Positions 5,831 to 48,992 of a DNA stretch of 64,000 nucleotides are shown here, piece after piece. The position numbers and the translations under genes were made by a program. Numbering within the stretch: the stretch's first letter is position 1; the number at the start of each line of letters is the position of its first letter. Below the pieces are notes generated by a model. That model ran no database searches, was not told the DNA's origin, and saw only the letters and a program-made list of their open reading frames with translations. The stretch is from NCBI RefSeq assembly GCF_017795745.1, contig NZ_CP059067.1, positions 2,728,001 through 2,792,000 of the forward strand, in the 5' to 3' direction. The stretch comes from Rhizobacter sp. AJA081-3 (lineage in GTDB: Bacteria > Pseudomonadota > Gammaproteobacteria > Burkholderiales > Burkholderiaceae_C).

Positions 5831-5848
5831 GTGCGCCAGCGCACCGAC
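5831..5848 (+). promoter_or_regulatory. Recurrent 18-bp motif site (1 mismatch)
   Basis: Matches the consensus GTKCGNNNGCGNACAGAC except that ACAGAC reads ACCGAC. It lies between the divergent AI-2E-type and DUF302 genes, 50 bp before the DUF302 start, with the 3' half pointing to it. Confidence 0.55.
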
Positions 5849-5898
5849 GGGAGCGTGGCGGCGGCGCACCGTCGGCGGATCTGCCCGACGAGCCGCCC

Positions 5899-6339
5899 AT
5901 GGACACTGCCACCCTCGCCCCCGCCCTCGCTGCCATCCCCGCCTACAGCCGCCACGCCCTGCCCATGCCGCGCGGCTTCGCCGATGCCGTTTCGCGCACC
6001 GTCGATGCCCTGGCCGCCGAAGGTTTCGGCGTGCTCAGCGACATCGACGTGCAGGCCACCATGAAGGCGCGCCTGGGCGTGCAGATCCTGCCGTACCGCA
6101 TCCTCGGCGCCTGCAATCCGCCGCTGGCGCTGCGTGCCCTGCAGGCCGAGCCGGACATCGGCCTGCTGCTGCCGTGCAACGTGATCGTGCGGCAGGAAGA
6201 GGATGGCGCCGTCACCGTCGCGTTCATGGACCCGAACGCGGTGCTGCACCTCAGCAGCCATGTGCAGGTGGCGGCCGTCGCTGCCGAGGCGCGCTTGCGG
6301 CTCGACCGTGTGCGCGAATCGCTGCACGGGAAGGGATGA
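5899..6339 (+). CDS. DUF302 domain protein
   Basis: A 146-residue protein with the DUF302 core: [29 protein letters not shown], then [18 protein letters not shown], then a strand-rich end with [14 protein letters not shown] and VAFMDP. The ATG at 5899 places the domain close to the N-terminus; longer upstream starts would add a low-complexity Arg/Pro stretch. DUF302 proteins are small, often stress- or metal-associated, and of unknown biochemistry. The Cys in GACNPP and the one in LPCNV are both usual in the family. Confidence 0.85.
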
Positions 6340-6412
6340 ACAGGCCCTGTCAGGGCACTCTGATGGCACAGCGATGCAGAAGATGCGAGTTCCCTTCGCC
6401 CGGTTGAGCGAT

Positions 6413-6426
6413 GTACCCTAGGGTAC
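6413..6426. promoter_or_regulatory. 14-bp perfect palindrome upstream of a Crp/Fnr gene
   Basis: GTACCCTAGGGTAC is a perfect dyad 127 bp before the regulator start at 6554 and 13 bp before a recurrent 18-bp motif. It could be an operator. No intrinsic terminator tail follows. Function is inferred only from symmetry and place. Confidence 0.4.
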
Positions 6427-6439
6427 GCAAGCCCCCTGC

Positions 6440-6457
6440 GTCTGTACGCTATCGAAC
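6440..6457 (-). promoter_or_regulatory. Recurrent 18-bp motif site (exact)
   Basis: The minus strand matches GTKCGNNNGCGNACAGAC exactly. It lies 97 bp upstream of the Crp/Fnr gene at 6554. It is the one strong site whose ACAGAC end points away from the nearest gene start. Confidence 0.55.
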
Positions 6458-6553
6458 CAACCGGGAGCGCCCGTGAGCCTATAGTCCATGCAGCGCCGGA
6501 ATGCCTGCGTCCACCTGAGTGACTGCGGGTGAAGACCCGACCTGGATGGTTCC

Positions 6554-7273
6554 ATGCAAGCCCCCACCGACGCGAAGATGAATCACCTGCTGGCTGCCTT
6601 GCCGGCCGCCGAGTGGGAACGCTGGCTTGACCAGCTGGAGCGCGTGCAGATGCCGCTGGGCCAGGTGCTCTACGAATCGGGCGCGACCCTCACGCATGCC
6701 TACTTCCCGACCACCGCGATCGTCTCGCTGCTCTACGTGATGGAGAACGGCGCATCGGCCGAGATCGCCGTGGCCGGCAACGAGGGCATGGTGGGCATCT
6801 CGCTGTTCATGGGCGGCGGCTCCACGCCCAGCCGCGCCGTGGTGCAAAGCGCCGGCCAGGGCTTCCGGGTGCGCTCGCAGTTCATCAAGGAAGAATTCGA
6901 CCGAGCCGGTGCCGTGATGCACCTGCTGCTGCGCTACACGCAGGCGCTCATCACGCAGATGTCGCAGACGGCGGTGTGCAACCGCCACCATACGCTCGAC
7001 CAGCAGCTGTGCCGCTGGCTGCTGCTCAGCCTCGACCGGCTGCAGGGCAACGAACTTGTGATGACGCAGGAGCTGATCGCCAACATGCTCGGTGTGCGCC
7101 GCGAGGGCGTGACCGAGGGCGCGCTGCGGCTGCAGGCCGCCGGGCTGATCCGCTACGCGCGAGGCCACATCAGCGTGCTCGACCGTGCCGGCCTCGAGGC
7201 GCGCACCTGCGAGTGTTATGCCGTGGTCAAGAAGGAATACGGCCGCCTGCTGCCGCAGCAGATCGCCTCCTGA
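6554..7273 (+). CDS. Crp/Fnr family transcriptional regulator A
   Basis: A 239-residue regulator with an N-terminal cyclic-nucleotide-binding-like beta roll (about 30-125), a dimerisation helix with LLLRYTQALITQMSQTAVCNRHHTL (about 128-155), and a C-terminal winged helix with the recognition helix near GVRREGVTEGALRLQ (about 184-200). The roll has the short, modified form typical of the Crp/Fnr branch with AYFPTTAIVSLLY, and ligand residues of classical Crp are not evident. It is clearly paralogous to the gene at 42525. Many members of this branch govern stress or cyclic-di-GMP-linked traits. The adjacent exopolysaccharide locus is a plausible but unproven target. Confidence 0.87.
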   Translation: MQAPTDAKMNHLLAALPAAEWERWLDQLERVQMPLGQVLYESGATLTHAYFPTTAIVSLLYVMENGASAEIAVAGNEGMVGISLFMGGGSTPSRAVVQSAGQGFRVRSQFIKEEFDRAGAVMHLLLRYTQALITQMSQTAVCNRHHTLDQQLCRWLLLSLDRLQGNELVMTQELIANMLGVRREGVTEGALRLQAAGLIRYARGHISVLDRAGLEARTCECYAVVKKEYGRLLPQQIAS

Positions 7274-7407: not shown

Positions 7408-7425
7408 GTGGTCCAGCGTACAGAC
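7408..7425 (+). promoter_or_regulatory. Recurrent 18-bp motif site (2 mismatches)
   Basis: The 3' half GCGTACAGAC is intact, while the left half departs at two positions. It lies 115 bp upstream of the GH5 cellulase start and points toward it. Confidence 0.45.
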
Positions 7426-7540
7426 AGAAGCAATGTCTGGCGCGCGTCGCCACCCCCTGCCATCGCCCTCCCCGGGCGAGTTCGCGAGCAGGGCCACCGT
7501 TCACCGTTCGAAACCGATATCCCCCTTGGGAGGCCCACCC

Positions 7541-9274
7541 ATGTCCCGACTTTTCCTCGATCGTGCCCGACGAATCCTGGCTGCCGTGCTCCTGGGCACG
7601 GCCGGCACCGGCACGCTCGCCGCCGGCTATTCCGCGCAAGGCGGAAAGATTCTCGACCCCGCCGGCCAGGAGCTGCAGCTCCGCGGCATCAGCCACTACG
7701 GCTTCAACGCGCTGATCCTGCAGCCGCAGTTCCTCTGGGCCATGGGCTGGAAGGAGCAGATCGCGCAGATGAAGAGCCTGGGCTTCAACGCCATCCGCGT
7801 GCCCTTCGTGCCCGACACGCTCTACAACACCACGCCCGTCAACCAGCTCAGCTACATCGATGCCGGCAAGAACCCCGAGCTGATCGGCAAGACGCCGCTG
7901 CAGGCGCTGGACCTGTGGATGGCCGAGGCCGACCGCCAGGGCATGTACGTCATGCTCGACTACCACAGCGTGTCGATGCAGCGCCAGTACCCGCACTGGT
8001 TCGTCTCGAACCCGGCGGACTTCGGCCTGATCTACAACAAGCAGGCCTACACGAAGGAGAACTGGATGCGCGACCTGGCTTTCGTGGCCAGGCGCTATGC
8101 GGGGCTGCCGCACTTCTTCGCCGTCGACATCTACAACGAGCCCAACGGCATCGTGCGCTGGAGCACCGGCGACCCCAACGCCACCAACCCCATCTACCAC
8201 TGGAAGGCCGCGGCCGAAGCCGGCGCGGCCGCGGTGCTGGCGGCGAATCCGAACCTGATGATCTTCGTGCAGGGCATCAATGGCAATTTCGACGGCAGGG
8301 AGAAGTCGAACATCGCGATGAACTGGGGCGAGGACTTCCAGCCCCAGGCCTACCAGCCGCTGGCGATCCCCGCCGACAAGCTGGTGCTGTCGCCGCACAC
8401 CTATGGCCCCGACGTCTACGTGAAATCCTCGTTCGGCGCGGCCAATTTCCCGGCCAACCTGGCGGCGGACTGGGACACGCTGTTCGGCCAGTTCTCGGCG
8501 AAGCACCCGGTGGTGCCCGGCGAGTGGGGCGGCAAGTACGGCAACGGCACCGGCGGGCAGGCCGACGTGACCTGGCAGAACGCCTTCGTCGACTACCTCG
8601 TGGGCAAGGGCATGCGCAGCAGCTTCTTCTGGTGCTACACGCCGAACAGCGGCGACACCGGCGGCATCCTCGACGACCAGCTCAACGTGCGGCAGGACAA
8701 GCTCGCGCTGCTGAAGAAACTGTGGGGCGGCACGGCCACGACGACCGCGCCCGGGGCGACACCGGCACCGGCACCGGCCCCAGCACCGACACCGGCACCG
8801 GCAGCAGCCAACACGCAGCCTGCCATCGCCAGCTTCTCGCCGAACGCGGGCGCCATCGGCTCGGTGGTCACGATCACCGGCAGCGGCTTCAACGGCCTCA
8901 CCCAGGCCTGGGTCGGCAACGCGAAGAACGCCAGCTTCACGGTGCTCAGCGATGCGCAGGTCCAGGTCACGGTCCCGGCCGGCGCCACCACCGGTGCCAT
9001 CGGCCTGATCAATCCCCTGCATTCGGCCTTCACGGCCAAGTCGTTCAAGGTGAACGGTTCCAACAACAAGGCGACGGCGCCCGAGGTGCCGACGGCGGTG
9101 GCCGATGCGACCGCGTCGGACCCGGCTGCCGCGGCCGACACCGGCGGTGGCGCATTCGATCCGTTCTACGGCGTGTCGCTGCTCGCTGCCGTGGCGCTGC
9201 TGGGCTGGAGGCGCCAGCCGCGCGACACGACGCGCCGGCCGAGCGCGATGCCCGGCCGCTCGATCCAGAGGTGA
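7541..9274 (+). CDS. Secreted GH5 cellulase-like glycoside hydrolase with IPT/TIG domain and C-terminal membrane tail
   Basis: A 577-residue enzyme. The ATG at 7541 has a GGAGG ribosome site and begins a signal peptide ending near TLAAG. The GH5 barrel (about 30-400) shows the acid/base in VDIYNEPNG (Glu200) and the nucleophile in VPGEWGGK (Glu328). An Ala/Pro repeat linker leads to an IPT/TIG immunoglobulin-like domain (about 425-500). The C-terminus has a Gly-Gly-Gly/FDP segment, a hydrophobic helix and an Arg-rich end, like the C-terminal sorting tails cut by rhombosortase-type or glutamic intramembrane proteases. It probably cuts beta-1,4-glucan-like polymer at the cell surface. Its last 109 bp overlap the opposite-strand acyltransferase. 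Confidence 0.88.
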   Translation: MSRLFLDRARRILAAVLLGTAGTGTLAAGYSAQGGKILDPAGQELQLRGISHYGFNALILQPQFLWAMGWKEQIAQMKSLGFNAIRVPFVPDTLYNTTPVNQLSYIDAGKNPELIGKTPLQALDLWMAEADRQGMYVMLDYHSVSMQRQYPHWFVSNPADFGLIYNKQAYTKENWMRDLAFVARRYAGLPHFFAVDIYNEPNGIVRWSTGDPNATNPIYHWKAAAEAGAAAVLAANPNLMIFVQGINGNFDGREKSNIAMNWGEDFQPQAYQPLAIPADKLVLSPHTYGPDVYVKSSFGAANFPANLAADWDTLFGQFSAKHPVVPGEWGGKYGNGTGGQADVTWQNAFVDYLVGKGMRSSFFWCYTPNSGDTGGILDDQLNVRQDKLALLKKLWGGTATTTAPGATPAPAPAPAPTPAPAAANTQPAIASFSPNAGAIGSVVTITGSGFNGLTQAWVGNAKNASFTVLSDAQVQVTVPAGATTGAIGLINPLHSAFTAKSFKVNGSNNKATAPEVPTAVADATASDPAAAADTGGGAFDPFYGVSLLAAVALLGWRRQPRDTTRRPSAMPGRSIQR

Positions 9275-10365
9275 CCCGCGGTCGCCGCCAGCACCAGCAA
9301 CACGGCGCTGGCGGTGCCCACGGCCCACCAGGCAATCGGCGACGACAGCGCGAAGCGCGCCACCGGCACGATCGACAGCACCACGGTCAGCACCAGCCCC
9401 TGCATCAGGTAGAGGCTGTAGCTGATCGTGCCCAGGCGCTGCGCGGCGCGCGTGCGCAGCAGGCCGAACAGCGTGGCGCCCGAGCAGATGGCGAGAAAGA
9501 AGCCGCCCAGCAGCAGCGCCGCGACCGTGCCGTAGCCGGTGCCGGGGGCGGCGCAGGCCGCCACCAGGCACAGCCCGGCGATGGCGGACCAGGCTCGCTC
9601 CGGCAGCCGCGTGGCGGGCCGCGCATGCCGCCACGAGCCCACCGCCATGCCGATCGCGAACAGGGCACCGAAGCCCAGCGCATCGATCTGCACGAAGCGC
9701 TTGGCAGCCAGGCAGGCCACCAGCCCCACCAGCACGGCGGCGAGGTGCCAGCGCCAGCGCGAGACCCCCGCCCAGGCCAGCAGCGAGGCATAGAACACCC
9801 ACTCGTACCACAGCGTCCAGGTGACGCCCGCGAGCACGTGGCGCGCCACTTCGCCGTTGACGTCGGGTTGCGTGTCGATCAGGCCCAGCGCCAGCCACTG
9901 CAGCGCCTGGCCCGCGACCACGCCTGCCGGCTCGCGCAACACGAAACCGCTGCGCGAGAACACGATGGCGAGCATCGCCAACACCACGAACAGGTACATC
10001 GGGCCGATGCGGAACAGGCGGCCGATGTACAGGCGCGCCCAGCCCGGCCGGCCGCGCGTGTGCAGCAGGCGGGTCCAGAACAGGTAGCCGGTGAGCATGA
10101 AGAACACCGAGACGCCCACCGGCCCGAGCACGGCGTAGAAGTGATCCCTGGGCGCGGCCCACACGCCGTCGATCAGGTAGCGCCGCATCAGCACCATGTG
10201 GTACACGAACACGCCCAGGGCGAGGAAACCGCGCAACCCGTCGATCGAGGAGACGCGCCCGGCCACACCGGCCGGTTCGTCCAGGCGCGCGAAGGCCGGC
10301 AGCGCGGCCACGCCGAGCACCACGGCCATCAGCACGAAGTAGGCGAGCGGGTTCTCCAGGCTCAT
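9166..10365 (-). CDS. Membrane acyltransferase, family 3
   Basis: A 399-residue multi-helix protein with the acyltransferase-3 hallmarks: SSIDGLRGFLALGVFVYHMV (conserved Arg and His) and SVFFMLTGYLFWTRLL, followed by RLYIGRLFRIGPMYLF and about ten predicted membrane segments. Such enzymes move acetyl or other acyl groups onto exported polysaccharides. It sits inside the exopolysaccharide locus between the two glycan hydrolases and is a candidate for decorating the polymer. The C-terminal 36 codons lie antisense to the tail of the GH5 gene. The helix count is an estimate. Confidence 0.87.
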   Translation of the reverse strand: MSLENPLAYFVLMAVVLGVAALPAFARLDEPAGVAGRVSSIDGLRGFLALGVFVYHMVLMRRYLIDGVWAAPRDHFYAVLGPVGVSVFFMLTGYLFWTRLLHTRGRPGWARLYIGRLFRIGPMYLFVVLAMLAIVFSRSGFVLREPAGVVAGQALQWLALGLIDTQPDVNGEVARHVLAGVTWTLWYEWVFYASLLAWAGVSRWRWHLAAVLVGLVACLAAKRFVQIDALGFGALFAIGMAVGSWRHARPATRLPERAWSAIAGLCLVAACAAPGTGYGTVAALLLGGFFLAICSGATLFGLLRTRAAQRLGTISYSLYLMQGLVLTVVLSIVPVARFALSSPIAWWAVGTASAVLLVLAATAGHLWIERPGIALGRRVVSRGWRLQPSSATAASSDTP

Positions 10366-10379
10366 TGCGCAGCCGCTGC

Positions 10380-10397
10380 GTGCACAAGCGCACAGAC
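10380..10397 (+). promoter_or_regulatory. Recurrent 18-bp motif site (1 mismatch)
   Basis: Lies in the 86-bp divergent gap between the acyltransferase (start 10365) and the GH8 gene (start 10452). The ACAGAC end points to the GH8 gene. Confidence 0.55.
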
Positions 10398-10451
10398 GCC
10401 ACGCGGCACGATGCGTAGCGTCCGCGCGTGGACGACTGCGAAACGAAGCAC

Positions 10452-11582
10452 ATGCGCATGACGATGGATCGACGGCACTGCCTGAAACTGACGCTGGGGG
10501 CCTGGGCGCTGGCCGGCGTGTGGCCCAACGCGCTGGCGGCGCCCGACTGGCCGGCCTGGGAGGCCTTCGCCGGCCGCTTCGTGCAGGCCGACGGCCGCGT
10601 GATCGACATCACCTTCGACCGCAAGAGCACCTCGGAAGGCCAGTCGTACGGGCTGTTCTTCGCGCTGGTCGCCAACGACCGTGCGCGCTTCGACACGATC
10701 CTGAAGTGGACCTCCGACAACCTCGCCGGCGGCCGACTCGGCGAGCGCCTGCCCGCATGGCTGTGGGGACAGCGCGCCGACGGTGGCTGGGGCGTGAAGG
10801 ACGAGAACTCGGCCGCCGACGGCGACCTGTGGATCGCCTACGCGCTGCTCGAGGCCGCGCGGCTGTGGAACGCGCCGGCCTATGCCGAGAACGGCCGCCG
10901 CCTGCTCGCCCTGGTGCGCAGCAAGGAGGTGGCCGTCAACGGCGCGGGCGTGCCGGTGCTGCTGTCGGGCACGGTGGGCTTCAGGCTCGACAAGGGACGC
11001 TTGCGCATCAACCCGAGCTACGTGCCGGGCTTCATGTTCCGCTACTTCGCGACGGTCGATCCGCAGGGGCCTTGGCAGGCCATCTGGGAGGGCTTCCTGG
11101 CCATGGCGCCGCAGATGTTCGCCGCCGGCGTGGCGCCGGACAACCTGGTCGTCGACGCCGCCGGCCGCGCCATCCCCGACACCGAACGGCCGCCCTCGGC
11201 CAGCTACGACGGCATCCGCGTCTACCTGTGGGCGGGCGTCTCCGGCGCGGGCAGCGAGACGCTGCTCAAGCAGCTCGCGCCCTACGCCGCGCTGACTCGC
11301 CAGCGCGGCACGCCGCCCGAGAAAGTCGATCCGCTGACCGGCGTGGCCCAGCGCGGCGACTACTCGCCGATCGGCTACTCGGGCGCGCTGCTGCCCTTCC
11401 TGAAGGCGACAGGCGACACCGCGCTGCTCGAGCAGCAGCGCGATCGCGTGCGCCGCTCGCCACTGAACTCGACCAGCAACTACTACGACCAGGTGCTGGT
11501 GCTGTTCGGCACCGGATGGATCGAAGGCCACTATCGCTTCGATGCTCAAGGCAGGCTGCTGCCGCGCTGGTCGTCGCGCTGA
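10452..11582 (+). CDS. GH8 endoglucanase, BcsZ-like
   Basis: A 376-residue secreted enzyme of glycosyl hydrolase family 8. The likely acid is in STSEGQSYGL (Glu62 from this start), and the conserved Asp lies in SAADGDLWIAYAL. The Trp-rich substrate cleft (WLWGQRADGGWGVKDENS) is also present. The N-terminus has a twin-arginine-like signal (DRRHCLKLTLG, ending ALAAP). Several starts are possible (GTG 10428, ATG 10452, 10458, 10464), and all keep the signal. BcsZ enzymes normally accompany bacterial cellulose synthase, but none is here. It more likely trims the Wzy-made exopolysaccharide or beta-glucan. The last 37 bp overlap the convergent gene. Confidence 0.88.
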   Translation: MRMTMDRRHCLKLTLGAWALAGVWPNALAAPDWPAWEAFAGRFVQADGRVIDITFDRKSTSEGQSYGLFFALVANDRARFDTILKWTSDNLAGGRLGERLPAWLWGQRADGGWGVKDENSAADGDLWIAYALLEAARLWNAPAYAENGRRLLALVRSKEVAVNGAGVPVLLSGTVGFRLDKGRLRINPSYVPGFMFRYFATVDPQGPWQAIWEGFLAMAPQMFAAGVAPDNLVVDAAGRAIPDTERPPSASYDGIRVYLWAGVSGAGSETLLKQLAPYAALTRQRGTPPEKVDPLTGVAQRGDYSPIGYSGALLPFLKATGDTALLEQQRDRVRRSPLNSTSNYYDQVLVLFGTGWIEGHYRFDAQGRLLPRWSSR

Positions 11583-13366
11583 ACTGTGGCGGCCGGCAAC
11601 GGCCGCAACTCGATGGCCGCGCTGCGCAGCACGCCAAACACGCGCGGGCCGCGCAGCAGGTAGCGGCGGGCCATGCGGCGCGGATCCTGCAGCAGGCGGT
11701 ACAGCCACTCCATGCCGCTGCGCTGCATCCACGGCGGCGCGCGTTGCTCATCGCCGGTGATGAAGTTGATCGATGCGCCGATGCACAGCGCCAGCCCGCG
11801 CGCCGTGCCGCGCTCGCGCAGCGCCTGGGCCAGCACCTCCTGCTGCGGCGAGCCCACGGCGAGCAGGCAGAAGCGGAACGGACTGTGCGACTCGATGAAC
11901 TCCAGGCAGGCCTGCACTGCCTGCGGGTCGCGCACGAAGCCCATCGGCGGCACATGCTGCGACAGCCGGCGCAGGCCGTACAGCGCCTCCAACTGCAGCG
12001 CCTGTGCCGGCGTGCCGCCGATCAGCACGATCCCGTCGTCCGGCGCGATGACGTCGCGAAACAGTGCCGCCGTGAGGTCGCTGCCGCGGCACACCGGCAA
12101 CTCGATGCCGCGTGTGGCGCCGAGCAGCCTGGCGACGAAGCGGCTGTCCAGCAGCACGTAGGTGGCCTCGTCGTAGAGCGCACGGAACGCGGCGTCGTCG
12201 TGAAGGCGGATCAGGTGATCGGCGTTCGGCGTGACCACGTAGCCGTAGTCGCGCTGGCCGAAGCCGGCCGCCACGCGGGTGAAGCCGGCGAGGTCGCAGT
12301 CGTCGAACCGCAGGCTGTGCCTGGCCGCACGCGGCGGCGCGGCAACCCGGAAGAAGCCCGCGAAGTGCCGGGCGAACTCGCCCAGGCCCGCGAGCGCGAG
12401 CAGCACGACGGTGACGATCCAGCGCGGCACCATCGAGTCGCCGGCCTGCACCAGCGCGTCCCAGCGCCGCGCGGGGGGCTGCACCAGCACGCCCACCGGC
12501 ACGTGGTCGCCGACGAAGGCGACCGCCGGCCGGACCAGCGCCATTTCGAGGTGTCGCGGGCACAGGCCGATGGGCACCGACAGCGCCTTCAACCGCTTCA
12601 GCGTCTGCGGCAGGCGATGCTCGGCCTGCACGGGCAGCGCCAGCACGATCCAGTCGATCTTGCGCGTCTTGCCCAGCTCGATGAGCTGGTCGACGGTGCC
12701 CTGCGCCGCGGCGGCCGAAGGCACGGCACCTTCGAATCCGTCGTCGAACACGCCGATCAGCTCGACGGTGTGCGCGCGCGTCTGGCGCAGCGCATGCACC
12801 AGCCGCTGCGCAGCCTGGCCCGCGCCGACCACCGCGATGACTTCGGTGAGCAGCCCGGCACGCTGCAAGCGCTGCAGGCTGCGCGCGGCCAGCGCGCGGG
12901 CCAGCAGGGTCAGCGCCAGCGTGCCCGCGAGCCACGACGTCAGCCAGGCGGTCGGGAAGCTGCGCATCGCGCCGCTCGCGGCACCCAGGGCGAGCAGGCC
13001 GAGCAGGAACAGTGCGAATCGCAGCAGGTGCGTGCGCAGCAGCCCGGGCACACCGTCGCTGCGGCTGGCCTGGAGGCCGAAACGCGGGTCGTAGAGGGTG
13101 AAGGCGGCGAGCACCGCGGCGACCAGCGCGGCCGGCATCAGGTCGCCCTCGAAGGCGCCGACCAGGCCGACCCCGCCGGGCACGGCCGGGCCCAGCGTGA
13201 GCGCGAGCCATGCCGCGGCCACCAGGCACAGCGGGTCGAGCAAGAGGAACAGCGCACCGCTCATCGAGACCAGGTGGTAGCTCAGGCGCGGCCGGAAGTC
13301 CGGCGGCAGCCAGTCGCTCGGCGCAGCGGATCGCGGCGAGGCCGCACTGGAATCAGGCGGGAGCAT
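11546..13366 (-). CDS. Hybrid protein: PHPT-type membrane/nucleotide-binding half fused to a WecG/TagA/CpsF glycosyltransferase
   Basis: A 606-residue protein. Residues about 25-150 are membrane helices, and about 155-290 form a Rossmann-like region (EVIAVVGAGQAAQRL ... GVFDDGF ... KIDWIVLALP ... SVPIGLCPRH). Both parts match the N-terminal half of the PHPT encoded directly upstream (13378-14847). A further membrane helix follows at about 335-350. The PHPT catalytic domain is missing. In its place, about 370-585, is a WecG/TagA/CpsF (GT26) domain with TPNADHLIRL, GFVRDPQAV, AVGSPQQE and GASINFITGD. The enzyme probably transfers the second sugar to the lipid-linked primer, held beside the PHPT. 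It starts 11 bp after the PHPT stop. Confidence 0.85.
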   Translation of the reverse strand: MLPPDSSAASPRSAAPSDWLPPDFRPRLSYHLVSMSGALFLLLDPLCLVAAAWLALTLGPAVPGGVGLVGAFEGDLMPAALVAAVLAAFTLYDPRFGLQASRSDGVPGLLRTHLLRFALFLLGLLALGAASGAMRSFPTAWLTSWLAGTLALTLLARALAARSLQRLQRAGLLTEVIAVVGAGQAAQRLVHALRQTRAHTVELIGVFDDGFEGAVPSAAAAQGTVDQLIELGKTRKIDWIVLALPVQAEHRLPQTLKRLKALSVPIGLCPRHLEMALVRPAVAFVGDHVPVGVLVQPPARRWDALVQAGDSMVPRWIVTVVLLALAGLGEFARHFAGFFRVAAPPRAARHSLRFDDCDLAGFTRVAAGFGQRDYGYVVTPNADHLIRLHDDAAFRALYDEATYVLLDSRFVARLLGATRGIELPVCRGSDLTAALFRDVIAPDDGIVLIGGTPAQALQLEALYGLRRLSQHVPPMGFVRDPQAVQACLEFIESHSPFRFCLLAVGSPQQEVLAQALRERGTARGLALCIGASINFITGDEQRAPPWMQRSGMEWLYRLLQDPRRMARRYLLRGPRVFGVLRSAAIELRPLPAATVQRDDQRGSSLP

Positions 13367-13377
13367 GGCGGCGTCGC

Positions 13378-14847: not shown

Positions 14848-14877
14848 CTCGGCAGATTAGGGATGGGCTGCCGCAAG

Positions 14878-14933
14878 GTCTGTGCGTGAACGAACTCAGT
14901 GCGCCAACGCACCGAGTGCGCTGGCGCACAGAC
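14878..14933. promoter_or_regulatory. Cluster of three 18-bp motif sites
   Basis: Three sites are packed in 56 bp: 14878-14895 on the minus strand (1 mismatch, pointing to the PHPT gene), 14899-14916 plus (3 mismatches), and 14916-14933 plus (exact, pointing to the ATP-grasp gene). They form the core of the divergent control region of the polymer locus. Confidence 0.6.
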
Positions 14934-15007
14934 CGGCCGCGCAGATCGCCCCAGGCTCCGCGGGTGTGGATCGGCCACCTCGGGCCGACTGCGTCTGCGA
15001 CCCTTCC

Positions 15008-16378
15008 ATGCCCGAACAGAACCCGAATCCCGTGTCCCGGCCCGGCGCCAGCACAGCGGCCGAACGGCCGCGCATCCTGCTGACTGCCACCTTGCGCTGG
15101 CCCATCGCGGCGCGCCTGGCCATGGCCTTCAGCGAACTCGGCTGCCGGGTCGAGGCGCTGTGCCCGCGCGGACATCCGGTGACACACACACGGGCCACCA
15201 CGCGAGTGCACTTCCATGACGCGCTGCGGCCGTTGCGAGCGTTGCGCGCCGCGTTGCTGGAGAGCATGCCGGACCTCGTCATTCCCTGCGACGACGAGGC
15301 CGCCGTGCAATTGCATCGGCTGCATGCAGGCTGCGTCGCCACGGAGCCTGCCGACCGCGCGCTGAGTGCCCTCATCGAACGCTCGCTGGGCAACCCCGGC
15401 GCCTGTGCGCTGGCGACAACGCGCGGCCCGCTGCTGGCGCTGGCCGCGGAACTGGGCATCCGCGTGCCGCACACCACCGCCGCGGCCACAGCGCAGGCGC
15501 TGGACGCCTGGCTGGCACGCCACGCGCTGCCGGCGGTGATCAAGATCGACGGCAGCTGGGGCGGCCGCGGCGTGGCGATCACGCACAGCCGCGACGAGGC
15601 CCACGACGCCTTCACGCGGCTGTCGAGCCGCCCTGCCCTGCGCCACGCGCTGGCACGGGCGCTGCTCGACCGCGACCTCGCGCCGCTGCGCAGTTCGCTG
15701 CGCCACGACGCGCCCCCGGTCACGCTGCAGGACCACGTCAGCGGCCATCCTGCGAACCGCGCGGTGGCCTGCTGGAACGGCCAGGTGCTGGCGGGCACCA
15801 GCGTGGAGGCCCTGTGCACGCAGCAGGCCACCGGGCCGGCGACCGTGGTGCGCGTGATCGACAACGCCGAGATGGACGAAGCCGTGCGCCGCCTCGTCCA
15901 GCGGCTCGGCCTCACGGGCCTGTGGGGCGTGGACTTCGTCATCGAGGCGGCCACCGGCGCGGCCTTCCTGATCGAGGTGAACCCGCGCGCCACGCCGATC
16001 ACGCACCTCGCGCTCGGGCCGGGCCGCGATCTGCCGGCCGCACTGCTCTCGGCGCTGGGAGGCCTGAACGCCCGCGCGCCGCGCGAGCCCATCGGGCGGG
16101 ACCTGATCGCCCTGTTTCCCGGCGAATGGCAGCGCGATCTGGCCAGCGAACACCTGCAGCGGGCCCACCACGATATCCCCTGGACCGAGCCTGCTCTCGT
16201 GCGCGACGGGCTGCTGCGGCCCTGGGCCGAGCGCGGCTGGGTGGCGCGATCGTGGGCGCGCCTGCGCGCCAGCCCCCGGCGTGCCGCGCCCACTCCACCG
16301 TGCGCCAGCGAACAGACCCCGACCGACTGCAGCCACTACAACCCAATGTCGCCGCACGTGCGCAAGGGCATGAAATGA
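15008..16378 (+). CDS. ATP-grasp domain protein of the exopolysaccharide locus
   Basis: A 456-residue protein with an N-terminal nucleotide-binding-like part (ILLTATLRWPIAARLAMAFSELG) and an ATP-grasp fold. The lysine is in LPAVIKIDGSWGGRGVAI, and the metal site is in GVDFVIEAATGAAFLIEVNPRATPITH. ATP-grasp enzymes join a carboxylate to an amine or thiol through an acyl-phosphate. In this setting it may add an amino acid or similar group to a sugar of the polymer, which is inference. The ATG at 15008 was chosen because upstream codons lie within the motif cluster. It overlaps the Wzz start by the ATGA signature. Confidence 0.82.
   Translation: MPEQNPNPVSRPGASTAAERPRILLTATLRWPIAARLAMAFSELGCRVEALCPRGHPVTHTRATTRVHFHDALRPLRALRAALLESMPDLVIPCDDEAAVQLHRLHAGCVATEPADRALSALIERSLGNPGACALATTRGPLLALAAELGIRVPHTTAAATAQALDAWLARHALPAVIKIDGSWGGRGVAITHSRDEAHDAFTRLSSRPALRHALARALLDRDLAPLRSSLRHDAPPVTLQDHVSGHPANRAVACWNGQVLAGTSVEALCTQQATGPATVVRVIDNAEMDEAVRRLVQRLGLTGLWGVDFVIEAATGAAFLIEVNPRATPITHLALGPGRDLPAALLSALGGLNARAPREPIGRDLIALFPGEWQRDLASEHLQRAHHDIPWTEPALVRDGLLRPWAERGWVARSWARLRASPRRAAPTPPCASEQTPTDCSHYNPMSPHVRKGMK
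16300..16317 (+). promoter_or_regulatory. Recurrent 18-bp motif site (exact) inside the end of the ATP-grasp gene
   Basis: An exact match, 57 bp before the Wzz start and within the coding end of the upstream gene. It may mark a second transcript start for the wzz-to-wzx run. Confidence 0.5.
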
Positions 16379-18542: not shown

Positions 18543-18555
18543 GCGCGGCCCGGCC

Positions 18556-21068: not shown

Positions 21069-21130
21069 GCGCGCCGGGCCGCTCCCAAGCGCTCATCCCG
21101 GAGCGCGCAGCGCGGAGGGTGGTCCAGTGA
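21065..21130 (+). CDS. Possible 21-codon linking ORF
   Basis: This short frame starts at an ATGA overlap with the acyltransferase stop and ends with a TGA that overlaps the GTG start of the next gene. It could pass ribosomes from one gene to the other. The sequence is Arg/Ala-rich, and a small hairpin (GCGCT/AGCGC) lies inside. There is no evidence that the peptide itself matters. Confidence 0.2.
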   Translation: MSAPGRSQALIPERAARRVVQ

Positions 21131-28174: not shown

Positions 28175-28255
28175 GAGGGCTCCAGGGTGTCTTGGTGGCG
28201 CAGGCCCGAGAGGCCCGTCGCTTCGAAGTTCCTTGTAGACCTCGCACGTCGATTC

Positions 28256-28303
28256 GTCTGTGCGCGAGCGCACATGCATGCCTGTGTGCTGCGGCGCACA
28301 GAC
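28256..28303. promoter_or_regulatory. Pair of divergent 18-bp motif sites
   Basis: 28256-28273 on the minus strand is an exact match pointing to the OsmB-like gene. 28286-28303 on the plus strand (1 mismatch) points to the ORF at 28341. Each site faces its own gene across a 12-bp spacer. Confidence 0.6.
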
Positions 28304-28662: not shown

Positions 28663-28680
28663 CGGTACGCTGCCGTACCG
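28663..28680. terminator. Perfect 7-bp hairpin between 28652 and the efflux operon
   Basis: CGGTACG and CGTACCG flank a CTGC loop. It lies 10 bp after one stop and 32 bp before the next start. No run of T follows, so it may be an operator rather than an intrinsic terminator. Confidence 0.35.
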
Positions 28681-28712
28681 ACGCAAAAGACCTGCTCGCG
28701 CATGCTGAGCCG

Positions 28713-33526: not shown

Positions 33527-33544
33527 GCGAGGCAGCGAACAGAC
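33527..33544 (+). promoter_or_regulatory. Recurrent 18-bp motif site (2 mismatches)
   Basis: The 3' half GCGAACAGAC is intact. It lies 59 bp before the BON gene start at 33604 and points toward it. Confidence 0.5.
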
Positions 33545-33603
33545 GGCCGGCGGCCCGCGGCGCATGCTCGAACCATCGCCATTCAACCCGGGATCGAGAC
33601 ACC

Positions 33604-39730: not shown

Positions 39731-39765
39731 GGCTGGAAGCCACCGTAGCCCGCGCCGTGCCGGCG

Positions 39766-39849
39766 GTCTGTGCGATAGCGGACAGAAGAAGTGATCGCCG
39801 CCAGCCATCCGGGCAAACCCTCGCGCGCTCTGTTCGATAGGCAACAGAC
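39766..39849. promoter_or_regulatory. Two divergent 18-bp motif sites
   Basis: 39766-39783 on the minus strand (2 mismatches) points to the permease gene. Its plus strand also reads as a near dyad ending ACAGAA. 39832-39849 on the plus strand (2 mismatches) points to the kinase gene at 39936. Confidence 0.5.
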
Positions 39850-39935
39850 GGCCGGCAGGAAGGGGGGGATCCTCATCCTCTGTTCGGGCCTACCGCATCG
39901 GCGCTTGCAGTACCCCGACCCAGAACTCGCATCCA

Positions 39936-41699: not shown

Positions 41700-42523
41700 T
41701 CATTCCCGAACAAGACATCCTCTGCGCACGCATCCTGATCGTCGACGACCAGGAGGCCAACGTGCTGCTGCTCACCCGGCTGCTCGGCGAGGCCGGCTAC
41801 ACGAACCTGTCGTCGACCCGCCAGCCCACCGAGGTGTGCGCGCTGCACCGGCGCAATGCCTATGACCTGATCCTGCTCGACCTGCAGATGCCGGCGATGG
41901 ACGGCTTTGCCGTCATGGAGGCGTTGAAGACCAACGACGCCGACGGCTACCTGCCGGTCATCGTGCTGACCGCCCAGCCCGGCCACAAGCTGCGCGCGCT
42001 GCAGGCCGGCGCCAAGGATTTCATCAGCAAGCCCTTCGACCTGGTCGAGGTGAAGACGCGCATCCGCAACATGCTCGAGGTGCGCCTGCTCTACCGCCGG
42101 CTGGAAGCGCACAGCGTGATCCTCGAACAGGCGGTCAAGGAGCGCACCGCCGAGCTGCGCGAGAGCGAAGCGCGCTACCGCAGCCTCGCCGAGCTGGCCT
42201 CGGACTGGTACTGGGAGCAGGATGAACGCGGCGATTTCACCAAGGTGTCGGGCCCGGTGATGGAGATGCTGGGCATCAGCGTGGGCTCGCTGGCGGCCGA
42301 CGCCGCAGCCCCGGCCTTCGACGCCGGCTGGGACCGCGCGGAGCGGCTCACGCTGCAGGCCAACATCGCGGCGCGCCGGCCCTTCCTCGATCTGGCGCTG
42401 CACCGCACCGAGGCCGACGGGACCTGCCGGCAGTTCCGCGTCAGCGGCCAGCCGATGTTCGACCAGAGCTGCCGCTTTCTCGGCTACCGCGGCATCGGCG
42501 TCGAGATGATGAAGGGTCACTGA
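41696..42523 (+). CDS. Response regulator with receiver and PAS domains, no output domain
   Basis: A 275-residue protein: a receiver (about 10-130, phospho-Asp62 in LILLDLQMPAMDG, Lys in FISKPFD), a short coiled coil (EQAVKERTAELRESEARYRSL, about 145-165), and a PAS domain (about 160-270, ASDWYWEQDERGDFTKVSG). There is no DNA-binding, GGDEF, EAL or HD-GYP part. Such proteins act as relay or adaptor. It is coupled to the hybrid kinase gene upstream, and the Crp/Fnr gene starts 1 bp after it, suggesting one regulatory unit. Confidence 0.87.
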   Translation: MIIPEQDILCARILIVDDQEANVLLLTRLLGEAGYTNLSSTRQPTEVCALHRRNAYDLILLDLQMPAMDGFAVMEALKTNDADGYLPVIVLTAQPGHKLRALQAGAKDFISKPFDLVEVKTRIRNMLEVRLLYRRLEAHSVILEQAVKERTAELRESEARYRSLAELASDWYWEQDERGDFTKVSGPVMEMLGISVGSLAADAAAPAFDAGWDRAERLTLQANIAARRPFLDLALHRTEADGTCRQFRVSGQPMFDQSCRFLGYRGIGVEMMKGH

Positions 42524-42524
42524 C

Positions 42525-43256
42525 TTGGCCGCACTCGCCCCGCGCCCGCTGAACGGGCTGCACGCGCCCGCGCAGAACCAGCTCATCGCGGGTGTGTCCG
42601 CGGTGGAGATGCTGCCGCTGTCGGGTTCGCTCGAACTGGTGTCGATGATGCTCGGCCAGGTGCTCTACGAGCCCGGCAGCCAGATGCAGCACGCCTACTT
42701 CCCGACCACCGCCGTGGCCTCGCTGCACTACGTCACCGAATCGGGCGCCTCGGCCGAGACGGCGGGCGTGGGCCGCGAGGGCATGGTGGGCATTGCCCTG
42801 TTCATGGGCGGGCAGAGCACGTCCGGCTCGGCCGTCGTGCAGACCTCGGGGCACGGCTACCGACTGAACCGGCATTCGCTGATGCAGGCATTCGACGGCA
42901 CGGGGCCGTGGCGCCGCCTGCTGCTGCGCTACACGCAGGCACTGATGACGCAGATCTCGCAGACGGCCGCCTGCTACCGGCACCACACCGTCGAGCAGCA
43001 GCTGGCCCGCTGGCTGCTGTCCACCGCCGACCGATCACCCGATGGCGAGCTGGTCATCACGCAGGAGCTGGTGGCCGGCATGCTGGGCGTGCGCCGCGAG
43101 TCGATCACGCAGGCGGCCGGCGCCTTGCAGGACATGGGCTACATCCGCTACCGGCGCGGCCACATCAGCCTGCTCGACCCGGCCGGCCTGCGCAGCTGCG
43201 CCTGCGAGTGCTACGGCATCGTCAAGCACGAGTTCCAGCGCCTGATGGCGTCCTGA
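42525..43256 (+). CDS. Crp/Fnr family transcriptional regulator B
   Basis: A 243-residue regulator read from TTG 42525, 1 bp after the previous stop; an ATG near codon 29 is the alternative. It has a beta-roll (GQVLYEPGSQMQHAYFPTTAVASLHYV), a dimer helix (LLLRYTQALMTQISQTAACYRHHT) and a winged helix with GVRRESITQAAGALQ. It is a close paralogue of the gene at 6554, sharing LLLRYTQAL, TQELxAxMLGVRRE and the CECY end. Its position after a kinase and response regulator suggests output of that pathway. Confidence 0.87.
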   Translation: MAALAPRPLNGLHAPAQNQLIAGVSAVEMLPLSGSLELVSMMLGQVLYEPGSQMQHAYFPTTAVASLHYVTESGASAETAGVGREGMVGIALFMGGQSTSGSAVVQTSGHGYRLNRHSLMQAFDGTGPWRRLLLRYTQALMTQISQTAACYRHHTVEQQLARWLLSTADRSPDGELVITQELVAGMLGVRRESITQAAGALQDMGYIRYRRGHISLLDPAGLRSCACECYGIVKHEFQRLMAS

Positions 43257-43258
43257 AC

Positions 43259-43276
43259 GTTCGACGGCGCACAGAC
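43259..43276 (+). promoter_or_regulatory. Recurrent 18-bp motif site (exact)
   Basis: Starts 2 bp after the regulator stop and ends 69 bp before the HiPIP start, pointing to it. Confidence 0.58.
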
Positions 43277-43345
43277 GCCGCGTCGCGGCAGCGGCAGGCT
43301 CGTGTCATCCTCTGCCACCGCGCGCCCTGCCGCGCACCCCACGCC

Positions 43346-43774
43346 ATGAACACCCCCCTCACCCGCCGGCACTTCATCGTCGCCGTGCCCCTGACGACCG
43401 CCAGCCTGATGGCAGCCTGCTCGCCGAAAGTCGAATCGCCCCCCGTCGCCGCCGAGCAGATTCCGGCCACGCCGACCCCGCCGGCGCCCACGCCCAGGCC
43501 CGCACCGTCCCCCGCACCGGCTTCGGCCAGCGGGCCTGCGGCCGCGCTGCCGATGCTCGACGAAGGCGATGCGCAGGCGAAGTCGCTGGGTTATGTGGCC
43601 GATGCGGCGCGCGCCGACCGCACGCGCTTCCCGACCCTCGTGGCCGGCAGCCGTTGCGGCAATTGCGCGTTGTACCGTGGCACGGACAGCGACTCGGCCG
43701 CGCCTTGCCAGCTCTTCCCGGGCCGCTCGGTGGCTGCCGCGGGCTGGTGCAGTGCCTGGGCCAAGAAGGCTTGA
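43346..43774 (+). CDS. High-potential iron-sulfur protein (HiPIP)
   Basis: A 142-residue exported protein. The signal has twin arginines (TRRHFIVAVPLTTASLMAAC), as expected for a cofactor loaded in the cytosol. A Pro/Ala linker (about 35-65) precedes the HiPIP domain. The four cluster cysteines are in SRCGNCALYRG, APCQLFPG and GWCSAW. It carries a 4Fe-4S cluster and shuttles electrons in the periplasm. The signal also ends in a lipobox-like LMAAC, so lipid anchoring is possible. Confidence 0.92.
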   Translation: MNTPLTRRHFIVAVPLTTASLMAACSPKVESPPVAAEQIPATPTPPAPTPRPAPSPAPASASGPAAALPMLDEGDAQAKSLGYVADAARADRTRFPTLVAGSRCGNCALYRGTDSDSAAPCQLFPGRSVAAAGWCSAWAKKA

Positions 43775-44619: not shown

Positions 44620-44625
44620 TTCGCC

Positions 44626-45870: not shown

Positions 45871-45910
45871 TCCTTCATTCTCTCGTCATCACGTCCAAAG
45901 GAGTTCTCAC

Positions 45911-46264: not shown

Positions 46265-46268
46265 TCCG

Positions 46269-47321
46269 ATGAAGGCACCCTGGCACGGCCCGGCGATGCG
46301 GGGCGGCTTGTTCGCCCTGCTGGCAGCCACCTTGTTCGGCGTGAGCACGCCGTTGGTCCAGCGCTTCGGTGCCGGGCTGGGCGCCTTCACGACGGCGGCG
46401 CTGTTGTACGCCGGCGCTGCCGTGGTCGGCGCGTTCTCTCGGCGGCACATCGACCGCGAGGCCCGGGTCGTTCGCTCGGACTTGCCTCGGCTGTTGGCGA
46501 TGGCGGGCTTCGGCGCCGTGATCGGGCCGGTGGCACTGGCCTGGGGCCTGCAGCACACCAGCGGCACCAGCGCGTCGCTGATGCTCACGCTCGAAGCGTT
46601 GTTCACCGCGGTGCTGGCCTGGCGGCTGTATCGCGAGTCGATGGACAGGCGGGTGTGGGTGGCCATGGCCTTGCTGCTCGCAGGTGGCATGGTGCTGGTG
46701 CTCGACCAGGGCCGCGCGGGTGGCGCGCACTTGTGGGGCCTGCTGGCCGTGCTGCTGGCCACCGCCGCCTGGGGCGTGGACAACACGCTGTCGCGTGCGC
46801 TGGCGGACCGAGACCCGGGGCAGGTGGTGATGGCCAAAGGCGGGCTCGGTGCCGCGGCGACCACCGCGATGGCGCTCGCCCTGGGTGAGCCGCTCCCATC
46901 GCTGGCAGCCGCCTTGGCACTGTTCGCGATCGGCGCCACCGGCTATGGCCTGAGCCTGCGCTTCTACCTGCTGGCCCAGCGTGCCTTCGGTGCAGCGCGG
47001 ACTGGCTCAGTCTTCGCGTTTGCGCCCTTCATCGGCGCCGCCTTCGCCGTTGGGCTTGGCGACCGATCAGCCAGCGGGATGATGGCCTTGGGCAGCTTGC
47101 TGATGCTGGCCGGCGTGGTGCTGCACCTTGCCGAGTCCCATGGCCATGAGCACGATCACGAGCCGCTGGAGCACGAGCACGCCCACCGGCACGACGACAG
47201 CCATCACGGCCATCTCCACGAGCCCATGCCGGTCGGAGAGCACAGTCATCGGCATCGGCACCATCCACTACGGCACGTGCACACTCATGTGCCCGATGCG
47301 CATCACTCGCATCACCACTGA
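46269..47321 (+). CDS. EamA/DMT transporter with His-rich C-terminal tail
   Basis: A 350-residue protein. About ten membrane helices form two EamA repeats (GGLFALLAATLFGVSTPLVQ and HLWGLLAVLLATAAWGVDNTLS). From about residue 282 a cytosolic or periplasmic tail of roughly 65 residues carries more than 20 His (SHGHEHDHEPLEHEHAHRH, then HSHRHRHHP). The tail type is common in metal transporters (ZIP, CDF) but unusual in DMT proteins. It starts 4 bp after the upstream stop, so it belongs to the His-rich module and may be a metal permease or efflux pump. Confidence 0.85.
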   Translation: MKAPWHGPAMRGGLFALLAATLFGVSTPLVQRFGAGLGAFTTAALLYAGAAVVGAFSRRHIDREARVVRSDLPRLLAMAGFGAVIGPVALAWGLQHTSGTSASLMLTLEALFTAVLAWRLYRESMDRRVWVAMALLLAGGMVLVLDQGRAGGAHLWGLLAVLLATAAWGVDNTLSRALADRDPGQVVMAKGGLGAAATTAMALALGEPLPSLAAALALFAIGATGYGLSLRFYLLAQRAFGAARTGSVFAFAPFIGAAFAVGLGDRSASGMMALGSLLMLAGVVLHLAESHGHEHDHEPLEHEHAHRHDDSHHGHLHEPMPVGEHSHRHRHHPLRHVHTHVPDAHHSHHH

Positions 47322-47344
47322 GGGCCAAGAACCGCCGCTTCACC

Positions 47345-48067
47345 TCACCACTGCAGCGGCGGCAACTCGTGGAAGACGCGCCGCGTGCCGGCGATCCATT
47401 GCTGCTTGAGCGTCTCGAAGTAGGCGTCGCCATGCTCGAAGCGGCGCTGCATGCTCACCTGCAGGCTGTCACGGGCGTAGCACAGCAGGTCGATCGGCAT
47501 GCCCACCGACAGGTTGCTGAGCATGGTCGAGTCGAAGGACACCAGCACGCACTTGGTGGCGTCGTCCAGCGTCGCGTTCGAGCTCACGCCCAGGTCGAGG
47601 ATGGGCTTGCCGTACTTGGCCTCGCCCGTCTGCAGGAAGCTGGTGTCGGTGCCGGCCTCGATGAAGTTGCCTTCGGCGTAGATGCGGAACAGCCGCATGT
47701 CTTCGCCGGCGATCTGCCCGCCGAGGATGAACGAGGCGTTGAACTTCAGGCCGCCGCTCTCGAGGTAGGGCGCATCGCGGCGCTCGATGTCGCGCATCGC
47801 GTCGGACACCAGGTTGGCCACGTCGAACATCGAGCCCACCGACCACAGGTGCGGCGACTCGCCGGCGGCGCGCTGGCGCAGCACGTTGATCACCGCCTGC
47901 GTGCCGGCCAGGCCGCCGGAGCTCAGCAGCACCAGCACGCGGTCGCCGGCGCGCTCGAACACCGTCATCTTGCAGAACTTGGCGTAGTTGTCGACGCCGG
48001 CGTGGGTGCGCGAGTCGCTCGCGAGGATCAGGCCTTCTTCGAGCTTGACGCCGACGCAGTAGGTCAC
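47345..48067 (-). CDS. Proteasome-type peptidase (Anbu)
   Basis: A 240-residue Ntn-hydrolase. It starts at GTG 48067, so Thr follows the initiator and would be the nucleophile after Met removal. The sequence VTYCVGVKLEEGLILASDSRTHAGVD (in parts) matches the Anbu/BPH N-terminus, followed by VLVLLSSGGLAGTQAVINVL and the Ser-rich VLVSFDSTMLSNLSVG. Anbu forms a ring of stacked subunits and is often stress-linked. The start overlaps the transglutaminase stop by GTGA. Confidence 0.88.
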   Translation of the reverse strand: MTYCVGVKLEEGLILASDSRTHAGVDNYAKFCKMTVFERAGDRVLVLLSSGGLAGTQAVINVLRQRAAGESPHLWSVGSMFDVANLVSDAMRDIERRDAPYLESGGLKFNASFILGGQIAGEDMRLFRIYAEGNFIEAGTDTSFLQTGEAKYGKPILDLGVSSNATLDDATKCVLVSFDSTMLSNLSVGMPIDLLCYARDSLQVSMQRRFEHGDAYFETLKQQWIAGTRRVFHELPPLQW

Positions 48068-48888
48068 GGCGCCACGACGGTGGTGTCGACCACGTCGGTC
48101 CAGACCTTGAAGCGCTCGAGGGTGTTCGGCCCGAAGGTGCTCGACAGCGCCACGTCGCAGGCGTCGCGGCCGCGCGCGATGAGCACGCGGCCGATGCGCG
48201 GCGTGTTGTTGCGCGGATCGAAGGTGTACCAGCGGTCGCCGAGGTAGGCCTCGAACCAGCCGGCGAAATCCATCGTGCCCCAGGGTTGCGGCGTGCCGTA
48301 GTCGCCGAGGTAGCCGGTGCAGTAGCGCGCCGGGATGTTCAGGCTGCGGCACAGCGCGATGCCCAGGTGCGCGTAGTCGCGGCACACGCCCACGCCCTCG
48401 TTCCAGGCCTCCCAGGCGGTGCGCGTGCGCCGCGCGTGCTGGTAGCCGAACTGGATGTGCTTGTGCACGTAGTCGCACACCGCCTGCACGCGCGCCCAGC
48501 CGGTGGGGCCGTGGCCGAAACGCTGCCAGGCGATGTCCGACAGCAGTTCGGTCTCGCAGTAGCGGCTGCCGAGCAGGTAGACCAGCGCCGACTCCGGCAG
48601 CTGCTCCACCGGCACCTGCGGCGCCGAAGGCACGACGAGGTCGGCCAGGCCGCTGTCGTTGACCAGCGCGTCGGTGCTCAGCGTGAAGGCGCCCGCGGGC
48701 GCGACGAGCCGGCTGCACCAGTTGCCGAACAGGTCGCGGTAGGCGGTGACGGGCACCGCCGGTGATGTCACGAGGTGGTCGGGGCGCACCAGGTCGGAGG
48801 CCCGCGAGTAGTGGATGCTGAGCGCCAGGATCATCGGCGTGGGCTGCGGGCAGCGATAGGCCATTTCGAAGCCGACTCGGATCTGCAT
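48064..48888 (-). CDS. Transglutaminase-like cysteine protease of the Anbu cluster
   Basis: A 274-residue protein. An N-terminal bacterial transglutaminase beta-rich half (about 1-130) precedes the papain-like core. The catalytic Cys is in NEGVGVCRDYAHLGIALCR, the His region is near MDFAGWFEAYLGDRWYTFDPRNN, and the Asp is in FDPRN. These accompany Anbu in most clusters, together with an alpha-E protein and a circularly permuted ATP-grasp protein. Neither lies beside it here. The start ATG at 48888 was chosen for its match to the usual N-terminus. Confidence 0.87.
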   Translation of the reverse strand: MQIRVGFEMAYRCPQPTPMILALSIHYSRASDLVRPDHLVTSPAVPVTAYRDLFGNWCSRLVAPAGAFTLSTDALVNDSGLADLVVPSAPQVPVEQLPESALVYLLGSRYCETELLSDIAWQRFGHGPTGWARVQAVCDYVHKHIQFGYQHARRTRTAWEAWNEGVGVCRDYAHLGIALCRSLNIPARYCTGYLGDYGTPQPWGTMDFAGWFEAYLGDRWYTFDPRNNTPRIGRVLIARGRDACDVALSSTFGPNTLERFKVWTDVVDTTVVAP

Positions 48889-48974
48889 GGTTTCCTTGGG
48901 TTGCATGGATGCGGGCTGCCGCGGAAGCGGCGAACCCGTCGCTTTCAGTTTCCGCCGAATGCCGGCCCGCGTCG

Positions 48975-48992
48975 GTGCGCCCGCGCACAGAC
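48975..48992 (+). promoter_or_regulatory. Recurrent 18-bp motif site (exact)
   Basis: GTGCGCCCGCGCACAGAC fits the consensus at every defined position. It lies 48 bp before the small ORF at 49041 and 86 bp upstream of the transglutaminase, pointing to the small ORF. Confidence 0.6.

Follow-up and report, generated by a model that had tools for sequence, protein, structure and literature searches.

A palindromic promoter element and a candidate Crp/Fnr-family activator in Rhizobacter sp. AJA081-3

What is an 18-bp motif that recurs, with a direction of its own, among the polymer, lipid-transport, regulator and stress genes of one stretch of a bacterial genome, and what would act on it? The stretch is a 64,000-nucleotide window of Rhizobacter sp. 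AJA081-3 (positions 2,728,001-2,792,000 of a 5.40-Mb single contig, NZ_CP059067.1; coordinates below are those of the window unless called genome positions or given in Mb). An earlier note listed 14 sites there, six perfect and eight with 1 or 2 changes, plus a weaker one at 14899 with 3 changes, and a search of the window returned all 14 at the same positions and strands, with no mismatch at 6440(-), 14916, 16300, 28256(-), 43259 and 48975. We consider it probable, on sequence grounds, that the motif makes up the upstream portion of activator-dependent promoters of class II, and that the activator is P0001, a Crp/Fnr-family regulator of 239 residues encoded at 6554..7273 (+), or a close paralogue.

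Promoter anatomy and abundance of the motif

The motif consists of a palindrome, GTKCG-N4-CGNAC, followed by GAC, which matches a -35 core, and alignment of the flanks of the window sites places NANNNT 18 nt past the motif's final C. This spacing was retested on independent DNA, namely 80 loci around homologues of P0001 (the best 80 of at least 586 confirmed homologue matches). NANNNT lay at 18 nt in 48 of the 76 exact sites (any other spacing between 5 and 44 gave 0-9) and in 73 of 135 sites with one mismatch; with near-copies removed the count was 46 of 73, with 3 at 17 nt, 9 at 19 and a mean of 2.4 (maximum 6) elsewhere. The -10 also stands at 18 nt in 8 of the 15 exact sites of the own genome. 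If the -10 is taken to start at -12, the 14-bp palindrome spans -48 to -35 and is centred at -41.5, and the motif's tail, CAGACN, covers -35 to -30, having GAC in common with TTGACA and leaving a 17-nt spacer. In sequence geometry this is a class II Crp/Fnr promoter, with a site centred at -41.5 that overlaps the -35 and is accompanied by a -10. This layout accounts for the direction noticed earlier, and the view of the element as promoter-linked holds. The accompanying suggestion of a 5′-untranslated-region element was rejected because the motif lies upstream of the -10, and the statement that it is no plain operator needs amending, as the motif would in fact serve as an operator, one for an activator, and overlap a degenerate -35 (GAC).

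In the window, 25 matches with at most 2 mismatches compare with a shuffle mean of 4.02 (standard deviation 2.16, maximum 10; 25 was reached in 0 of 100 shuffles), several of the 25 being the opposite strand of one palindrome counted again. Genome-wide, the motif has 35 matches with at most 1 mismatch where its reversed pattern has 3; 18 of these 35 matches fall between 2.703 and 2.777 Mb; a looser form of the motif, GTKCGNNNNCGNACAGAC, has 15 exact genome copies and 0 reversed. When the -10 is added, the genome holds 61 matches with at most 2 mismatches (14 reversed), and 14 of the 27 with at most 1 mismatch lie inside 2.703-2.777 Mb.

For scoring, a matrix was trained on 161 sites from relatives only, excluding the own genome. 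Training sites had to carry a -10, and the -10 columns are therefore fitted; the spacing counts in the 80 loci, the exact-site count without near-copies and the dyad search described below are independent of the matrix. It finds 17 window matches of at least 8, where shuffles predict 0.35, supports 12 of the 14 listed sites at that level and adds 28665(+), 4721(-), 48971(-), 39770(+) and 6444(+) to the list; sites 28286 (6.3) and 7408 (-2.0) were downgraded or dropped on these scores. Between 2.700 Mb and the end of the window (92 kb) lie 23 matches of at least 16, some being two strands of a single palindrome, while a 400-kb background, made up of 20 evenly spaced stretches of the own genome and not the whole of it, contains none of at least 16, none of at least 12 and 2 of at least 8. 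No match of at least 8 was found beyond window position 48,992, and further own-genome sites lie near 3.05, 3.94 and 4.48 Mb. The sites are not equally dense in coding DNA: 12 of the 14 distinct window palindromes scoring at least 8 are not wholly within a called gene, with 88% of the window coding by our own gene calls (binomial p = 4e-10). They also face starts, in a slightly smaller proportion than the 13 of 14 at 15-120 bp first reported: in 12 of the 14, a plausible start lies 30-93 nt beyond the motif. Two sites are exceptions. The candidate starts for 7408 are an ATG at 7 nt or a GTG at 160 nt, and 6440(-) has no start ahead of it. For 48975, all that lies ahead is a 44-aa open reading frame (ORF) with weak coding support. 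An RNA element or tRNA was rejected, as nothing in the window reached an Rfam gathering score and no tRNA was found.

The motif owes its direction to the -35 and -10 and not to the palindrome, and the 6440 palindrome should therefore be able to drive the opposite strand. Read on the plus strand, the putative promoter at 6444..6485 has the palindrome GTACGCTATCGAAC (common with the listed 6440-), the tail CAAC, 18 nt and a -10 TATAGT, after which the P0001 gene begins (6554); it scores 28.1, against 16.9 on the minus strand. This is the predicted own promoter of the P0001 gene, and, since it keeps palindrome and -10 with a CAAC tail, AGAC is not essential.

Start codons, which were unused in training, provide a further check. 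Among 347 promoters scoring at least 16, a set that includes training and own-genome sites, an ATG opening an ORF of at least 50 aa falls at the predicted +1 in 14, against 0-5 at offsets 7-11 and 13-24. The spike, which appears across relatives, is an independent mark of the predicted start site, and the position of the ATG suggests that the sugar-transferase gene (14878-) and the DUF1488 gene (4721-) may be leaderless. At another locus (L065:1605-1668), the ATG of a GGDEF gene sits exactly at the predicted +1, suggesting a leaderless transcript.

The candidate regulator and its rivals

P0001 matches PF13545 at 50.2 bits (cut-off 27) and PF00027 at 27.1 bits, just under the cut-off of 27.5, and its AlphaFold model (pLDDT 88.3) finds its best PDB matches in CRP, GlxR and FNR, at a TM-score of about 0.76. 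Domains and model place it in the Crp/Fnr superfamily, with the cyclic-nucleotide-binding-type beta roll, the dimer helix and the C-terminal helix-turn-helix. The link to the motif begins with a dyad search made without a prior motif (all 5-mers, gaps 0-12, one mismatch allowed) in the 300 bp upstream of 76 non-redundant homologues. Ranked first was GTGCG-N4-CGCAC, in the 5-4-5 half-site frame of Crp/Fnr proteins, found in 48 of 76 against 2.95 expected (0.5 of it pseudocount), and the next-ranked dyads extend it to TGTKCG-N4-CGMACA.

Motif and regulator also vary together. Across 99 relatives, mostly one per genus, with P0001 the sole regulator family covered and called at E<=1e-30, the exact motif occurs in 29 of the 38 genomes that have the regulator and in 16 of the 61 that lack it (2.08 and 0.36 copies on average; Fisher p = 1.3e-6), the means of a reversed-pattern control being 0.29 and 0.31. 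Within the window's own family, genus mates excluded, the means are 2.86 (22 genomes with the regulator) and 0.27 (30 without). The regulator is missing from the seven same-genus genomes (two of them less than 90% complete), in each of which 0-2 motifs occur. Close orthologues of the MlaE-STAS protein (best 43%) and of the sugar transferase (43% for the best-scoring match, up to 49% for shorter partial ones) were not found in same-genus genomes, so the target cluster and the regulator may be gained or lost together, two proteins being too few for proof. A match of at least 16 is present in 76 of the 80 loci (many such sites trained the matrix), and one of at least 8 in 21 of 30 further homologue loci from a phylum-wide sample (two own-genome). 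All five loci from one out-of-class family (L183, L185, L187, L188 and L206) have matches of 25-38; the two other out-of-class loci give 8.5 and none. Of the downstream genes, the largest cluster is that of regulator homologues (30 of 242).

The mechanism that we propose is as follows. A homodimer of P0001 or a close paralogue would bind TGTKCG-N4-CGMACA centred at -41.5 and would contact RNA polymerase beside the degenerate -35 (CAGACN), and transcription would then be driven from the NANNNT -10 that starts 18 nt past the 18-mer. The regulator would activate its own gene and an operon for a histidine kinase, a response regulator and a second Crp-type protein, together with exopolysaccharide, lipid-transport, efflux, and stress or envelope genes, of which many are grouped around the regulator gene. 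What the computation shows is the site geometry, the placement against genes and predicted +1, and the co-occurrence of the regulator family with the motif across genomes; binding, activation over repression, the acting paralogue and the signal are inferences.

Several observations weigh against this proposal. The exact motif is missing from 9 of the 38 regulator genomes, and outside the window's family the covariation is weak (1.0 in 16 genomes against 0.42 in 24, p = 0.06); moreover, the genomes are related, and the family split is the sole correction for kinship. The 80 loci were picked around the regulator, and its high rank among the targets is therefore partly by choice. In the phylum-wide sample, 9 of the 30 loci have no match of at least 8, and 1 of 20 window shuffles reached a chance score of 19.2. 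The ATG spike at +1 is followed by a broad ordinary-leader peak, in which single offsets reach 10-12 (36 and 48 nt). According to PMC1274295, R180 and E181 in Crp/Fnr proteins accompany G3 and A6, respectively, in the binding site. Our own alignment to the CRP helix gives P0001 an Arg and a Glu at the corresponding positions. The R180-G3 rule fits its site, which speaks for the proposal; the E181-A6 rule fails, the site having C6. Lastly, three to five paralogues could share the palindrome.

This last point leads to the strongest alternative, which we nevertheless regard as improbable, that the promoter architecture is as described, with another Crp/Fnr member as binder (the type at genome position 2714031, with helix GVRRVGVT, or the protein of 42525-43256) and P0001 mainly a neighbour. 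Five P0001 homologues at E<=1e-30 are encoded in the own genome, and the palindrome also precedes the 2714031 gene, where the gene-facing reading scores just 8.6. The homologue at genome position 3309844 has no match of at least 8 in its 3.2-kb locus (L040), and that at genome position 4459404 has a single match (19.4) about 800 bp upstream (L035). In relatives the two types often stand in tandem (L053:651-2237, L063:710-2254 and L057:8002-10130), an arrangement like a two-regulator module. Against another binder, genomes with the P0001 type alone hold exact motifs, for example G008 (4), G036 (3), G039 (7) and G049 (6), and it is this dyad that ranks first in front of the P0001-type genes.

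A repressor operator, at which a bound Crp/Fnr or other protein would block RNA polymerase, is very unlikely. Palindromes overlapping the -35 are common for repressors, but repressor sites are usually variable in position, and a degenerate -35 together with a centre that stays at -41.5 is the arrangement of an activator; the dyad, moreover, has the Crp/Fnr 5-4-5 geometry and tracks a Crp/Fnr gene across genomes, P0001 being the sole family compared. Slightly less credible still is a promoter for an alternative sigma factor with ACAGAC as its -35 and an incidental inverted repeat, a reading that takes up the earlier suggestion of an alternative promoter class and would suit the conserved directional tail and fixed -10 spacing. 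Nothing points to such a factor; an unbiased search gives both halves of the palindrome as its strongest signal, the -10 is of the common TANNNT type, and 6444(+) keeps palindrome and -10 with CAAC replacing AGAC.

Predicted promoters and regulon

With activation by P0001 or a close paralogue as the preferred reading, the predicted promoters of the window can be followed from left to right. Those at 4697..4738 (-; score 24.6) and 5831..5872 (+; -10 CACCGT; 26.0) face a DUF1488 gene (4400-4690; PF07369), whose ATG is at the predicted +1, and a DUF302 gene (5899-6339). Beyond P0001, the listed site at 7408..7425 (+), with 2 mismatches and a broken left half-site, is unsupported as such a promoter. 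From 7433 to 25947 runs an exopolysaccharide cluster with GH5 and GH8 hydrolases, Wzz and O-antigen-ligase-type genes, in which one glycosyltransferase has an EpsU match below its cut-off. Here the candidate promoters are 10380..10421 (+; TAGCGT; 27.8), facing the GH8 gene (10428-11582; PF01270); 14854..14895 (-; TAATCT; 27.9), facing the sugar-transferase gene (13378-14847; PF02397), with its ATG at the predicted +1; and 14916..14957 (+; CAGGCT; 24.5), facing an ATP-grasp gene (15008-16378). Within the end of that gene, the site at 16300..16317 (+; 0 mismatches; 14.9) faces the Wzz gene (16411-17805; PF02706).

Further on, 28232..28273 (-; 22.9), with TACAAG at the -10 place, faces genes for a glycine-zipper protein (27956-28174) and a BON-domain protein (27499-27942); the weak listed site at 28286..28303 (+) faces an ORF without family match (28341-28652), and the promoter new to the list at 28665..28706 (+; CATGCT; 25.8) lies upstream of an OEP, HlyD, ABC and MacB operon (28713-33500). 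A second BON-domain gene (33604-33933) is faced by 33527..33568 (+; CATGCT; 10.2). Next, 39742..39783 (-; TACGGT; 34.5) faces the MlaE-STAS gene (38576-39730; PF02405, PF13466). On the other side, 39832..39873 (+; GATCCT; 20.5), with a second match at 39770+ (19.2), faces the operon for hybrid kinase, response regulator and second Crp/Fnr-family regulator (39936-43256); this regulator (42525..43256, +; helix GVRRESIT) is 56% identical to P0001. A HiPIP gene (43346-43774; PF01355) is faced by 43259..43300 (+; CAGGCT; 29.1) and a transglutaminase-like gene (48064-48906; PF01841) by 48947..48988 (-; GAAACT; 25.4); the other strand of the latter palindrome, 48975..49016 (+; GAGCAT; 27.9), faces the doubtful 44-aa ORF at 49041.

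Outside the window, the own-genome targets are DUF4398, DUF3309, GGDEF, ferric-reductase-like, DnaJ, PRC, FMN reductase and phytochrome kinase genes, with a GMC oxidoreductase as a weak target (10.2) and a third Crp-type regulator, faced by a site of just 8.6. The phytochrome-type histidine kinase gene (L070:2467-4962, near 4.479 Mb of the genome) stands behind a 32.2 site, hinting at light input into or out of the regulon. In relatives, the recurrent target clusters are of regulator, BON, sensor kinase, DUF4398, CsbD-like, DUF1488, GGDEF and PRC types, named by eye or by shared cluster because Pfam was run on own-genome members only. The genes behind the sites agree with the earlier idea that polymer, lipid-transport, regulator and stress genes form what seems to be one regulon, and the target types that recur across species (BON, CsbD-like, PRC-barrel, DUF4398, DUF1488 and GGDEF) suggest a stress and matrix programme.

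Specificity and place among Crp/Fnr proteins

The regulator belongs to a known kind, Crp/Fnr, and its specificity was not found described. E. coli CRP at class II promoters binds TGTGA-N6-TCACA at -41.5, and the P0001 system is like it in the outer TGTG...CACA, the centre at -41.5, the fold, and Arg and Glu at the DNA-contact helix places. It is unlike CRP in having inner CG/CG for AT/AT, in its unrelated targets and in the cyclic AMP loop: in an alignment to GlxR, neither the Glu nor the Arg of that loop, which are the cyclic AMP-binding residues, is kept in P0001. The FNR/DNR site is given in PMC1274295 as TTGAT-N4-ATCAA; geometry (5-4-5) and fold are shared, but up to four of the five half-site positions differ (GTKCG for TTGAT), and P0001, whose first cysteine comes no earlier than residue 142, therefore lacks the N-terminal cysteines for an FNR-type iron-sulphur cluster. 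The closest published motif found is that of NnrR, an alpha-proteobacterial denitrification regulator, reported in the same paper as ctTTGcg-N4-cgCAAag; the inner CG-N4-CG and the geometry agree, whereas the outer bases here are GT for TT. The TTGCG-N4-CGCAA site and denitrification targets of NnrR members were not found for P0001, none of the targets named here serving that pathway. With outer bases as in CRP and inner CG as in NnrR, the site is therefore CRP-like outside and NnrR-like inside, a combination of which no instance was found in searches of PMC. Nor was a description of the motif found in these searches, outside which most subscription journals fall; the one related string was the NnrR motif.

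Nearer in taxonomy is Bcam1349 (BerA) of Burkholderia cenocepacia, which, according to PMC3584217, is a Crp/Fnr protein that activates an exopolysaccharide cluster with help from cyclic di-GMP. The likeness, drawn from the description there and not from protein sequence, lies in a Crp/Fnr protein, an exopolysaccharide cluster and the Burkholderiales; the regulon here is broader, and the words "consensus" and "palindrome" are absent from the main text of that paper. As for the signal that P0001 would read, C142, H145, H146, C219 and C221 (Cys, Arg-His-His and Cys-Glu-Cys-Tyr; residues 142-146 and 219-222) are invariant in 35 homologues, which hints at possible metal or redox sensing.

At E<=1e-30, 39 of 100 sampled relatives (own genome counted) have a P0001 homologue; at the stricter E<=1e-50, so do 24 of 299 genomes from the phylum-wide sample. 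A search of three subfamily members returned no match to an NCBIfam model. There is, in our judgement, an even chance that the homologues make up a large Crp/Fnr subfamily as yet without a name, marked by the helix LGVRRE and by invariant CxRHH and CECY, and recognising a DNA site of its own, TGTKCG-N4-CGMACA. On this reading the subfamily would activate a regulon for biofilm matrix and general stress, in two or more classes of Pseudomonadota and beside or replacing control by sigma factors; it would be gained and lost with its target cluster and would have some leaderless targets. The work supplies a defined DNA site and a target list for a Crp/Fnr subfamily without an NCBIfam model (three members compared). 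Several DUF genes gain context from the predicted regulon, and the motif lets the regulon be predicted from sequence in any new genome.

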